From the NCBI GenBank assembly GCA_036874045.1, contig CM072345.1:2629501-2693500 (forward strand): a stretch of 64,000 nt of DNA, given 5' to 3'. The stretch comes from Cymodocea nodosa. Lineage: Eukaryota; Streptophyta; Magnoliopsida; Alismatales; Cymodoceaceae. The notes beneath the pieces were generated by a model, which saw nothing but the letters and a program-made list of their open reading frames with translations, did no database searches and was not told the DNA's origin. Both the position numbers and the translations under genes were made by a program. Positions 748 through 7,328 of the stretch are shown here, one piece after another; within the stretch, counting starts at the first letter, position 1; each line of letters starts with the position of its first letter.

Positions 748-1230
748 TCACCCTTTAGGCTAGTATATGGAAAAAGTTGTCATTTACCAACTGAAATTGA
801 ACATAAAGCTTATTGGGTATTAAAAACTCTAAACACTAATTTAAATCAAGCTGTTGAAAATAGGAAAATACAATTGATTGAATTAGAAGAATTTAGGAAT
901 GAAGCTTATTTAAAAACTGTAAGAGAAAAAGAGAAAATGAAGTTCTAGCATGATAGGAAAATTATTCCAAAAACCTTTGAAATAGGACAAGAAGTATATC
1001 TTTACATGACTAGACTCCATAAACATCTAGGAAAATTAAGATCTAGATGGGCAGGACCTTACATAGTTCAAAATATTTATCCCTATGGAGTTATTGAAAT
1101 TGAAAATCCTAAGAATCAAAATATATTTAAAGTAAATGAACAAAGACTTAGGCCTATTTTGAAAATACCAAAAAGTTCATTTGGAATTATAGAAGAAGTA
1201 AAAGTAGAGGATTACTCGAGCTTGACTTAG
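748..1230 (+). pseudogene. Ty3/gypsy integrase, C-terminal part (G1)
   Basis: The reading frame matches the C-terminal third of the integrases at 61396-61884 and 49649-50134. It starts at the SPFRLVYGK motif, which in Athila-type integrases follows the catalytic core. It runs through a charged helix (EEFRNEAY, KEKEKM) to the GPY/F-like module (LGKLRSRWAGPYIV) and ends at EDYSSLT. The 5' part is missing because an LTR inserted at 748. One TAG at 948-950 stands where GD has Trp; GB has the same TAG. The envelope-like ORF follows after about 0.8 kb. Not functional. Confidence 0.85.
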
Positions 1231-1616
1231 TAAAAAAAAAAAAACCTTAATTAAATTCAATCACAGTTAAACCGAAAGGAATTATTGGTTTTACCGAAAT
1301 ATATTTAAAAAAAAAAATTGTTGCAATTTAACCGATAGGATCCATCAGTCTGATCGAAACACAAAAATATAAAAAAAAAGATATTTATATTATATTTAGT
1401 TTAATGCCGGTGTTATTAAAGTACAGTATCGGTTCTATCGACAAAAAAAAAAGAGAGAAAGAGTAATTTAGGTTCAACCGAGGAATATAACGGTTTGACC
1501 AAAAAATTTTAAAGTGTGGAAAAAGTAAGATCGACTAGATCGAAAATTCTTTAGTCTTGATCAAAGTAAAAATTATTATTATATGCATTTTTATTAGATA
1601 TAACTTTACGGGAAGT

Positions 1617-1688
1617 CCGTTGAGTTACACAACTCAATGAACTTACTCCGTTGAGTTACACAACTCAACGAACTTACTCCGTTGAGTC
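1617..1688. repeat. 31-bp tandem repeat with internal dyad
   Basis: Two full units start at 1617 and 1648 and a partial third at 1679. The full units differ at one base. Each contains GTTGAGTTA facing AACTCAAC, so a unit could form a short hairpin. The same word recurs in the LTRs and upstream of the accessory ORFs. Confidence 0.8.
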
Positions 1689-1850
1689 TAGGATAAGTTA
1701 ACAAATTTACCCCATTGAGTTAACTCTAACTCAATGGAGTATTGTAGTTATGTCCATGAACTAAGTCCGTGGAGTTAACCATAATTCCACGGATGAGAGA
1801 GCAAGAGTTTTGCGTGGGAAGTGACCTGATTACTCTCCTAAATTTAAGGC

Positions 1851-1864
1851 TTATTTATACTAAA
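1851..1864 (+). promoter_or_regulatory. TATA-like box before the envelope-like ORF
   Basis: TTATTTATACTAAA follows the GTTGAGTTA array and lies about 160 bases before the first usable ATG. Plausible core promoter; no start-site evidence. Confidence 0.3.
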
Positions 1865-2024
1865 CTTTGGGTTTGGGGGCATTATCCATAAAATCATTTA
1901 GAACTTAGAACAGTAAAGATTAGAGCGATTCCGTTTCGTTGTATAACTCCACGATGAGGAAGATGACACCTGAGTTCTAGGAAAATGCAGTTGACACGTT
2001 AGAATTTCTCAAAGATTCAGAGGA

Positions 2025-4189: not shown

Positions 4190-5148
4190 ATTGTATTGTT
4201 CATCTACTTGTACTTGTATGAAAAATATCTAACTGATTGTAATGAAAATTATTCATATAAATGAATGTATGTTTTTTAGATGTTTTTGTATTAATATTGG
4301 ACAATGATGTAATAGATGAATTATCTTGAATATTATATAATTCTTTGAACAATGTGCAAAATTGTTTAAAAGATTTACAAATTTTATAAATGACAAGATT
4401 AAATGCAAGATAACTAGTTAATGCTAAAAATATCTGCATGCTGTAGAGTAAAATATAAATTCTGCATAATATGAAATGAACTGTAAGTTAAATATTTATA
4501 TAATGTTCAGAATCAAATGAGTTTAATGACATGTATTTAACTTGATTTAAGTTAACAGAATGCAGGAGAGAAAAAAAAAATATAAAAGTTAATACGAGGA
4601 GTAAGCTTAGAAGTTGCTAAGTATTAACTCAATGAAGTAAGTTCGTTGAGTTAACCTTAACTCCACAAGGTCAATAATATAATACAAGGTCACTCTGTTG
4701 AGTTATCTATAACTCAACGAAGTTAGTTCGTGGAGTTAGCAACAGTAACTGAAGCTTGTCTATTGAGTTAACTATAACTCAATGAGGTTAGTTCGTGGAT
4801 TAAGCAAAACGGTTATTCTTTTAGCCATGAACGAAACTTCGTAGATCAAACGGTTATTAAAATTTGAAATTAGAAGTGACACACATACCCATAAAAATAG
4901 GAACTGCACTGCACGTTACAAGACACGTTCTTGCAACGAGATTCATTTGCTTTATGGACGTGCATTATAAATATAGAACAAAATGTTATTTACAAGTTAC
5001 CAGCACTTTTTGAAAGAAAAGGAACTTCATTGGGGAATTGGAAGGAGAAGCAGCTGATTCAACTTCATCCAACAACTATTTACTAAGTATAAAGCATCAG
5101 ACTGGTATGTAATTAATCTTCTGTTATTTTACTTTATGTTAAGAGTTT
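4190..5148 (+). promoter_or_regulatory. Spacer with motif array and TATA box before the capsid gag ORF
   Basis: 4190-4610 is AT-rich with nothing recognised. 4630-4810 has at least four GTTGAGTTA or TAACTCAAC units alternating with GTTCGTGGAGTTA. GACGTG and then TATAAATATA (4966-4975) follow, about 175 bases before the gag ATG. There is no primer-binding site and no LTR end here, so this gag ORF is not simply the start of a new element. I infer an internal promoter; deletion scars cannot be excluded. Confidence 0.45.
4966..4975 (+). promoter_or_regulatory. TATA box, putative promoter of the capsid gag ORF
   Basis: TATAAATATA is preceded by GACGTG and the GTTGAGTTA array. Position and sequence fit a plant core promoter. 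Confidence 0.4.
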
Positions 5149-6525
5149 ATGAGCACATTGATTCATTCTCCTAGTACTAAAAGATTAGTAAGAACACCTA
5201 CACAGGATTCTTCAACATAGAGACGTACTGAAATATTTTCTAAATTAAACTTTAACAAAATCCTTAGGGGTGTAGCTAACCTTTCTTTAAAAGAGAACGA
5301 AGATATGGCTGCTCCAGTAGAGAAACCATTAGGGGAAATTCTGTATCCTGAATTAGTTGATGAACCTTCATGTATTCGATTGCCAAACTTTGAGGGAGAT
5401 AGGTCTGAACTGAAATCTAATTATATTAGTCAATTGCCACATTTTCATGGATTAGAAAGAGAGTATGCCTATTATTTCCTTAGAGAATTTAACGAAGTTT
5501 GTCAAATGATGAAAATGCCGAACATGAGTATTGATGCTATTAAACTTAGATATATCCCTTTTGCTTTAAAAGACACAGCTAAGAGACGGTTATATACTCT
5601 ATCGCTTGATTCAATTTCTGCATGGACTGAATTTTGCTCTGTTTTCCTAGAAAAATATTATCTAACACATCAAACGATTAAAAAGAAGAAAGAAATATTA
5701 ATGTATAGCCAAAAACAAGGAGAATCATTCTGGAAATATTTTGAAAGATTTAAAGATTTACTAACTCAATGTTCACATCATGCAATGAGTAAAGCACAAT
5801 TAATAAGTATAATTTATGAAGACATAGATGTTTCAACGAAATCTTTATTAGAATCTACTTGTCAGAATGGATTTTTAAAATTGTGTAGTGAAGAAGCATG
5901 GGCATATTTATAAAACTTTGCAAAAAGAACTACATAGTGGGAAAACTCAGCTGAAGCTATTGCAGATAAAAGAATATTGCTAAGGGGAATGCATGAAATA
6001 GATTCAAGCACTATGCTTGAAGTTAAATTAACAAATAAAATAGAAGAGTTATCATTAAATCAAAAGCTAGCAGAAAAGAATGCAAATGTTAATGATTTAG
6101 ATATTATTTATGCTAGAAACCAGAAAGATAACTTTGGAAATTCATATAACCCTAATTGGAGAAATCACTTGAATTTATCTTGGAAAAACAATAATTTTCA
6201 AGGAGGAGAACATATAAATGACAAAAATATAAGTTATGAAGCTTTAATTGAATAAGGATCTAGAATAGAGAAATTAGAAAAAATAATCTAACAATTAAAC
6301 AATTGTTAGGATCTTGTATTTGGAAATGCTGCAATTCAAAATCAAAATATAAATAGAAATATACCCCCTAGATAGAAAGAATCAATGAAAGTTAGACCTA
6401 CTGGAGGATTGCCAATGCAAGTAATACCTAATCCTATCAACAGAACTGTTAATGAAATTGATACTCCTTTAGGAGGGTAGCTGAATGAAATAGTATAATT
6501 AAAGTAATTATGTATAATATAGTAA
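5149..6525 (+). pseudogene. Athila-type gag, capsid part (G1)
   Basis: Gag forms the retrotransposon particle. The residues from about 80 to 250 match the retrotransposon gag domain of Athila elements: FHGLEREYAYYFLREFNEV, IKLRYIPFALKDTAKR, FLEKYY, QGESFWKYFERFKDLL. Later comes SYNPNWRNHLNLSW, the Athila NPGWRNHPNFSW signature. The zinc knuckle that normally lies between these two parts is absent. I start at ATG 5149 because the frame is open back to it apart from one TAG at 5218; the ATG at 5305 is the alternative. Several stops follow, at about 5911, 6253 and 6478. The 3' end is fixed by alignment with the GA remnant at 44090-44235. The ORF lies between the envelope-like and F-box ORFs, not upstream of pol. 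Confidence 0.75.
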
Positions 6526-6590
6526 GCAAAAAAACATAAAAATATATATATAAAAAAAAGTGTAAGTTTAATTATAGTTAGTAGTATCGT

Positions 6591-6650
6591 AGAGTTATTA
6601 CTTAACTCAACGAACTTAGTCCATTGAGTTATGACCTAACTCCACGAGGG
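6591..6650 (+). promoter_or_regulatory. GTTGAGTTA motif pair upstream of the F-box ORF
   Basis: TAACTCAACGAAC, then CCATTGAGTTA and TAACTCCACGAG, lie 50-110 bases before the F-box ATG. The GA F-box has the same motifs at 43975-44030. A promoter role is inferred. Confidence 0.4.
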
Positions 6651-6700
6651 TGTGAAGTAGCTATGTTAATTTTTGTTTATGTTATACAGAATCACAATAG

Positions 6701-7328
6701 ATGGAATTGATGAAATTACCATTGGATGCACTAAAGGAAGTATTGAGTAACCTGTTAGCTAAAGATCTATGTAGATTGTGTTGTGTATCAAAGGAAATCA
6801 AATATTGTATCAGAGAAAAATATTTTCATGGACTACAAGCTGCAAAAATGACTAAGATTAGAGATGAATTTTTATGGAAGTCATTTAATCGTAGTTCAAT
6901 TTGCTATGAATATCTGAATATGGAAGAAACTACTGGAATTCCACCCAATGCATTAAAAGGAATAGATCATATTATGAGGATGGATGAAGGATTAATTATA
7001 TATAGAACCAAACCAAGGTATGCAATTCTATTACCTAAAATTTTGATTAGAAATCCTATTAAAAGAGAAGAATGGAATATAGGAAGGCCTAATAGATATG
7101 AAGTACCAACTAAAAATTGTGGATCAGCTTTAATATTTTCTGATAAAAATTCAGCCATTCCTGAAAAATTATATTATTGGAGACCAACTGGAAATTGGGA
7201 TGAAGATTTATGCTTAAGTGTGTATAATTTTCTGAATAGATCTTGGACTAAAAATACTATGATATATCTAAGACAAAAATCATTAATTAACAACATGCAT
7301 GTCATACTTGATGGATATATATATCTAG
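6701..7328 (+). CDS. F-box protein ORF carried by the G element (5' part)
   Basis: F-box proteins select targets for SCF ubiquitin ligases by binding SKP1. Residues 1-45 form a good F-box: MELMKLPLDALKEVLSNL, then KDLCRLCCVSKEIK. The C-terminal region has Trp and Tyr-rich stretches (YYWRPTGNW, LDGYIYLV) that recall kelch or F-box-associated repeats, but I cannot assign a domain. The frame is open for about 209 codons until the S2 LTR enters at 7329. It resumes at 21695. The ORF has no introns. A second copy at 43037-43898, in the same place relative to gag and LTR, shows that the gene belongs to the element. Target and function are unknown. Confidence 0.7.
7324..7328. repeat. Target-site duplication TCTAG, left copy (S2)
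   Basis: TCTAG precedes the LTR start TGTTAGG at 7329. The right copy follows the LTR end CCTACA at 21690-21694. Together they prove that 7329-21689 is one insertion in the F-box ORF. Confidence 0.9.

Follow-up and report, generated by a model that had tools for sequence, protein, structure and literature searches.

Must the capsid part of gag stand ahead of the enzymes in a long terminal repeat (LTR) retrotransposon? The question is raised by a stretch of 64,000 nucleotides from Cymodocea nodosa (contig CM072345.1, positions 2,629,501 to 2,693,500; hereafter the window), where a broken element of a family that we call F1, the copy G1, carries a capsid-type gag open reading frame (ORF) behind integrase, and where two further copies, GD and GB, have a gag ORF without capsid, gag', next to protease. 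LTR retrotransposons and retroviruses commonly place gag first, with capsid (CA) and nucleocapsid (NC) in a single protein, and this plan underlies ideas on RNA packaging and on the Gag:Pol ratio. The observation made in the window is real, and the finding is wider than one odd family: there is a clade in which the capsid gag lies behind integrase, and in the window's F1 capsid and nucleocapsid are parted as well. We regard it as highly probable that an Athila-related clade moved its capsid gag behind integrase and has its capsid on a short mRNA of its own, the expression part of this reading being a prediction. If the reading is true, the clade together with the split family would make it possible to test packaging and stoichiometry separately.

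The portions of the survey of Neumann et al. (2019, PMC6317226) available to us give the Ty3/gypsy order as GAG-PROT-RT-RH-INT and state that every element with an unexpected domain order or with multiple domain copies was removed as a likely incorrect prediction, so elements like those described here may be hidden in other plant genomes. Extra ORFs behind pol, env-like or antisense, appear in the accessible parts of Vicient and Casacuberta (2020, PMC7264820) and of the Retand paper (PMC11963269); as far as these excerpts go they are additions to gag-pol, whereas here an essential part of gag has moved. Neither the Troyka paper (PMC12440569) nor the fig paper (PMC8127270) shows the capsid behind integrase in the sections at hand, and in a literature covered in extracts, thinly for subscription journals, we found no precedent for this order or for an F-box gene in an LTR element. 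Within that coverage, extra ORFs behind pol were known before; what is new is that the capsid gag itself stands behind integrase.

The complete order in copies of F1

The integrase C-terminus, envelope-like (ENV-like) ORF, capsid gag and F-box ORF of G1 all lie on the plus strand (Table 1); the open capsid core at 5221-5913 matches PF03732 (E 9.5e-14) and the F-box ORF matches PF00646. The gag' of both GD and GB runs from a zinc knuckle through the LRSG region to protease, with capsid absent. Stops and frameshifts disrupt the reading frames of all three copies.

The genome searched was the window's own assembly (G000, 374.6 Mb). An exact 18-mer primer site, TGGCGCCGTTGCCGGGGA, which we take to be of tRNA-Asp type, occurs in it 298 times, and its reversed control not at all. 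At ten of these sites, read 18 kb downstream (E1-E10), the gag' match begins 126-176 bases past the primer site without exception. An exact primer site is followed by an unbroken knuckle in seven of the nine F1 copies for which a frame was available, and a window-type integrase is kept on the same strand in eight of the ten. E1 and E3 are complete, reading primer site, gag', protease, integrase, ENV-like ORF, capsid and F-box. Elsewhere parts are missing: the ENV-like ORF in E4 and E8, this ORF and the capsid in E7, the capsid tail and F-box in E9 and E10 (with part of the capsid also gone from E9), and integrase in E2; E5 is interrupted by other elements, and E6 retains gag' through integrase on its own strand. 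Beside E6 and beside E7 lies an opposite-strand copy with integrase, ENV-like ORF, capsid and F-box in unchanged order, the one beside E7 having only the integrase C-terminus, cut by the edge of the stretch.

The hallmarks of an LTR retrotransposon are present. LTR pairs of 1.8-2.0 kb ending in TG..CA were found in E1 (95.2% identity), E2 (94.8%), E4 (92.2%), E7 (96.4%) and E10 (96.5%), and they enclose the capsid in E1, E2, E4 and E10 and not in E7. E3 has an LTR match of 86.5% over 1.1 kb and E5 partial matches; no LTR pair was found in the stretches read for E6, E8 and E9. Behind the primer site, at the far end of the element, a polypurine tract precedes the 3' LTR (GGGGGAAG, GGTGGAAG in E1), and a perfect 5-bp target duplication was found in E1 and E10 and not in E7, that is, in two of three checkable copies (E2 and E4 were uncheckable). 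The gap from ENV-like ORF to capsid is 1364-1384 bases in six of eight copies and 1128 and 471 bases in the other two, and that from capsid to F-box is 706-778 bases in eight copies of the E set and 791-820 bases at seven places, one in the window and six others noticed by eye in both match lists. These near-constant gaps, taken with the LTR-bounded copies, argue that 4190-5148 in G1 is no chance junction of two elements.

The initial annotation, which read the capsid as moved behind pol, is therefore supported by the recurrence of the order in copies with their own LTR pairs. Its order for G1, with a capsid gag lacking a knuckle, and its account of gag' as starting at the knuckle beside protease were both borne out. 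It had derived the window copies by deletion from one ancestral order of 15-18 kb, and that order exists in E1, which is 16.6 kb long, and in E3, with deletion variants elsewhere. An element holding gag' and capsid inside identical LTRs had also been envisaged; E1 has both genes, within LTRs that are similar and not identical.

What follows the primer site

A sample of 33 distinct primer sites (8, 5 and 20), all from contigs C1-C7, gives the same picture. At 30 of them gag' comes first (24 F1, 5 F2, 1 F6), and an ordinary capsid-first gag, the arrangement that would have spoken against relocation, follows none of the 33. Among the last 20 sampled, a lenient pattern made the knuckle readable at 15 of 18 gag'-first sites; at L038, L042 and L049 gag' was recognised by similarity only. 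At the remaining three sites a deletion has brought the capsid leader up to the primer site (L005), a deletion reaches into protease (L040) or inserted sequence follows (L043). The ordinary Athila gag P0002, used as a query against the same genome, gave matches of 29-36% identity only (106 of 5912 candidates scored).

Two candidates for an ordinary gag were rejected. A capsid match 898 bases behind a primer site on C3, for which this 34th site was chosen (L059, C3:15289700-15290700), proved to be a deletion derivative in which the F1 capsid leader is joined to that site. The other, an F4 match (L060) whose frame has 1219 residues, is an integrase-capsid deletion fusion, with no LRSG or protease within the 4 kb read. 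L059 and L005 (C1:9001937-9004954) are derivatives without gag'-pol that retain the LTR end and the capsid start.

Eight families and their knuckles

In all eight families examined (F1-F8) the capsid is downstream of integrase, in F3-F8 on the same strand. The path from primer site to capsid was read within one copy in F1 (E1, E3 and deletion variants), F2 (in E5) and F6 (L046, L054). For F2 the distance is 4949-4967 bases in five of six copies and 6497 bases in the sixth, the six being those with a listed primer site within 20 kb among 27 F2 matches typed from C1-C7. A primer site was in reach of 5 of 50 F1 matches (8686, 8727, 7096, 898 and 18655 bases; 150 of 6439 first-look candidates were scored in the F1 capsid search) and of 2 of 20 matches to other families (15046 and 8808 bases). 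Stop codons separate the pol and capsid ORFs of F4 and F2. F4-type frames have 465-503 residues in most of 92 matches, fewer where truncated, and 582 and 1219 in two; the F4 capsid ORF ends shortly past LPSNTVPNPR, without LRSG. Between families, identity is 36-69% for capsid and 54-68% for integrase.

Knuckles were identified by direct reading of the C-x2-C-x4-H-x4-C (CCHC) pattern; by Pfam, none was above cutoffs in the gag' of F1, F2 or F6 or in the F4 gag. The gag' has one knuckle in F1, one in F2 and two in F6, where they stand in tandem directly behind the primer site (L046, C3:14874850-14875650). The downstream gag has a knuckle in F2 (CLGCNMVGHIVNEC), F3, F4, F7 and F8 and none in F1 and F5; that of F6 is too damaged to read. 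The motifs WRNHPNFSW and LRSG are present in the split families, and the capsid keeps its WRNHPNFSW-type tail even in F1 and F5, which have lost the knuckle. Thus the proposal that the two halves together equal one gag holds only for F1 and does not extend to F2, F3, F4, F7 and F8, with their downstream knuckle, or to F6, with two in gag'. The relocation had been described for an Athila-type family, which is right for the window's family and too narrow for what is a multi-family clade.

In E5 an F2 element lies within an F1 element, and its capsid ORF runs straight into F1 sequence (L017/L018); the F2/F1 junction is possibly recombinant.

Relation to Athila elements

The split families resemble Athila (Ty3/gypsy, non-chromovirus OTA) in primer site sequence, protease-reverse transcriptase (RT) similarity, the motifs WRNHPNFSW and LRSG, and an extra 3' ORF, but they differ in order: the capsid is first in ordinary Athila and comes after integrase in eight of eight families here. 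P0002 (Ulmus minor) and P0011 (a JGI contig) differ from them in the same way, having capsid, knuckle and NPGWR(Q/N)HPNFSW in a single gag ORF, capsid first; the P0011 ORF continues to LPSQ..NPK, LRSG and protease. Among 130 proteins, 90 have the LRSG site, and 52 of these have an LPSQ-type motif just before it; few of the 38 without this motif were examined closer, and P0009 is the one among them that falls with the split families in the tree described next.

A branch supported at 95/99 divides a protease-RT tree of 36 rows: on one side are F1 (two copies), F2, F3, F5, F6 and P0009, on the other 29 Athila-like rows. The tree has no Tat/Ogre outgroup and fits both a sister and a nested placement relative to Athila. 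F3 is represented by few columns (20%) and has a long branch, and P0009 comes from a contig of 2871 bases whose start may be incomplete. The mark of an ordinary gag before LRSG was found by pattern in 13 of the 29 Athila-like rows, the rest having no mark or no LRSG match. A scan of viral contigs with the capsid alignment gave no match, and a protein search with a second capsid alignment gave two, of which only P0129 is close; this fragment, from a 1363-base contig, includes both capsid and knuckle. The AlphaFold model of the window capsid has a pLDDT of 57; a fold search of the PDB with it gave nothing at E <= 0.001, HIV capsid entries being among the insignificant matches, and the best match of the capsid profile to PDB sequences was a Gag polyprotein chain (E 0.0079).

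Selection and candidate expression signals

The F1 capsid is under purifying selection. Its median pairwise ratio of nonsynonymous to synonymous substitution (dN/dS, Nei-Gojobori) is 0.30 (9 copies, 36 pairs, range 0.17-0.58), which indicates that the relocated capsid was retained as a protein while the family spread. Medians for the other parts of F1 are 0.34 for gag', 0.39 for the knuckle region, 0.71 for protease, 0.39 for integrase, 0.41 for the integrase C-terminus, 0.16 for the ENV-like ORF, 0.54 for the capsid tail and 0.39 for the F-box.

A palindromic block of the type CGTTGAGTTA..TAACTCAACG occurs in the F1 LTR about 300-340 bases before the primer site (L009) and again before the ENV-like, capsid and F-box ORFs (for the last at 6587-6660 in the window; Table 1 for the others), which looks as though each downstream gene had received a copy of a single control element. 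Median divergence of the window copy from the others is 0.19 at the capsid leader, 0.30 further upstream and 0.25 at the coding start, and a TATAWAW match stands at -183 to -165 from the capsid ATG in all eight aligned F1 copies. In F3-F6 the capsid ATG follows a T-rich stretch that ends in AG, and in E1 and the window the F-box ATG follows a similar one, both as read by eye.

A model of the split and its alternatives

A plausible history begins with a duplication or move of gag before the families diverged, after which capsid was lost from the 5' copy and, at a later stage, in F1 and F5, the knuckle from the 3' copy. The presence of a knuckle in the moved gag of five families, and in both places in F2, suggests that movement or duplication came first and the parting later. 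The 5' ORF, as read in F1, F2 and F6, runs from knuckle(s) and LRSG linker through protease, RT and RNase H to integrase, and in F1-F8 the capsid gag, with an ordinary gag start and the WRNHPNFSW tail, is a gene of its own behind integrase. In F1 it stands between a second ORF and the F-box ORF and has lost its knuckle, so that capsid and nucleocapsid are parted. Separate expression of the capsid is what we infer from these features. Full-length RNA would serve NC-Pol, and a short mRNA would carry the capsid, started internally at the TATA-like site in F1 and in others produced by splicing at an acceptor close in front of the capsid ATG. Capsid production would then be separate from that of NC-Pol and exceed it, with particles forming when CA meets NC-Pol-RNA complexes, an encounter that the WRNHPNFSW-type tail may help. 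Foamy viruses likewise make structural and enzymatic proteins from different mRNAs, but in them the spliced mRNA carries pol, and gag keeps its first place; here the short mRNA would carry the capsid, and the order of the genes is different.

A bolder version makes the capsid a late-type gene on its own subgenomic mRNA, with CA of the split F1 acting in trans with NC-Pol-RNA, an anti-silencing F-box and shared palindromic controls, a multi-promoter plan like that of a virus. We would wager slightly against this whole, its odds having been lowered because the downstream gag of F2 has a knuckle.

Several points weigh against the relocation and separate expression that we favor. The genome searches scored only the best 91-150 of about 6000 candidates, the primer sites to be read were chosen from the first 100 of the 298 (contigs C1-C7), and the F1 copies read are mostly broken. 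The gene context of F3-F8 comes from one or two copies each, and in F3, F4, F5, F7 and F8 the 5' end and gag' fall outside the stretch read. Parting of capsid and nucleocapsid is seen in F1 alone, and F2 has a CCHC knuckle both in gag' and in the downstream gag (L033, C5:4956300-4961300; L017). The identity tables for capsid and integrase correlate at r 0.45, with 154 of 5040 permutations as high, a moderate value for which we do not claim strict co-descent and with which repeated recombination is possible. On the side of expression, conservation of the TATA-like site is weak evidence, the copies being related and the region AT-rich; TATAWAWR is absent from the F2-F6 spacers tested (F2 has one TATATAT), and the acceptor-like sites were read by eye and are unscored.

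With the same anatomy, CA could instead be translated from full-length RNA by reinitiation or internal ribosome entry. That the TATA-like site holds a fixed place in F1 alone is in favor of this; the capsid, however, lies 5-9 kb from the primer site in most copies, behind stop codons, and T-rich AG sites were read by eye before it in F3-F6, and we think translation from full-length RNA unlikely. Less probable still, and by our estimate a poor prospect, is that the downstream capsid serves as an accessory or inhibitory gag, like p22 of yeast Ty1, while the working capsid is supplied in trans by ordinary Athila elements. Plant elements often carry additional ORFs behind pol and an internally initiated Ty1 RNA is named in the literature, but neither the 106 candidates scored out of 5912 nor the 33 primer sites yielded an ordinary Athila gag, the downstream gag retains an ordinary N-terminal start and the whole capsid region, with the knuckle in five families, and in F1 it is under pol-like selection.

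The remaining alternative, that G1 joins two elements by chance or that nested insertions imitate the order, draws on a window full of nested elements and on E5, where the 3' part of an F2 element abuts F1 sequence. Spacings that are near-constant at many loci, LTR pairs and target duplications that enclose the whole unit, and the same order in eight families refute it for F1 as a whole and make it extremely improbable in any form. The order, its recurrence in independent LTR-bounded copies, its spread over eight families and purifying selection on the F1 capsid are observations with which the relocation of the capsid gag agrees.

ENV-like and F-box ORFs

The middle ORF had been called envelope-like. 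In an F1 copy it matches PF20167 at E 2.3e-6, under the gathering cutoff, and no membrane-like stretch was found in three open parts amounting to less than the whole ORF (maximal 19-residue hydropathy below 1.0); an envelope function is unsupported. Relatives with 24-46% identity lie at window positions 14440-14697, 19196-19594 and 24351-24783, the first adjoining ORFs read as copia-type, so Copia and Gypsy elements may have the ENV-like ORF in common.

The F-box ORF has 379 residues in the longest copy read, and its Pfam matches are F-box models only, PF00646 being above the curated cutoff in F1 and F8 copies; its AlphaFold model has a pLDDT of 38. In F8 (L058:3488-4000) an F-box ORF that is 36% identical to that of F1 stands directly behind the capsid. 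To judge from these sequences, the F-box gene is an old passenger. The P0 proteins of plant viruses use an F-box against AGO1, and by analogy an anti-silencing role is possible, in which the product of the F-box ORF would direct silencing factors of the host to ubiquitin ligases.

Features of the window

Table 1. Parts of the F1-type copies in the window (positions in the window)
Feature	Position	Strand	Remarks
G1, whole	748-7342	+	5'-truncated element, broken 3' half of LTR retrotransposon family F1
G1 integrase, C-terminal part	748-1229 (748-1221 in part)	+	tblastn 83.5% to GD integrase C-terminus
Palindrome array before ENV-like ORF	1616-1790	+	GTTGAGTTA..TAACTCAAC type
ENV-like (PF20167-type) ORF	1954-4188	+	broken; best open part 3328-3837
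Palindrome array before capsid gene	4609-4807	+	
TATA-like site	4966-4973	+	TATAWAW match 183 bases before capsid ATG; putative promoter
Relocated capsid gag	5149-6480	+	ATG 5149, stops within; NPNWRNH tail, no zinc knuckle
F-box ORF	6701-7342	+	3' end lost in G1; PF00646, E 1.3e-8
Second F-box copy	43259-43898	-	same family, 71-77% identity
GB integrase with its C-terminus	49655-50734	-	
GB protease	52549-53271	-	
GB gag'	54800-55644	-	degenerate knuckle VSICEFYNLEGHNISDC; same kind as GD gag'
GD primer site	55929-55946	+	degenerate form of TGGCGCCGTTGCCGGGGA
GD gag'	56031-56886	+	ATG 56031; degenerate knuckle at start, ends in CITLRSG region, no capsid
GD protease	57063-58981	+	insertion at ~57441-58648
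GD integrase with its C-terminus	60796-61884	+	

Similar arrays of short palindromes (TCGGATAGTTAT..ATAACTCACCGAA; AACTTAACGAGTT) occur at window positions 6-522 and 63190-63640 and in the insertion of L043, and they look as if unrelated elements had converged on them.

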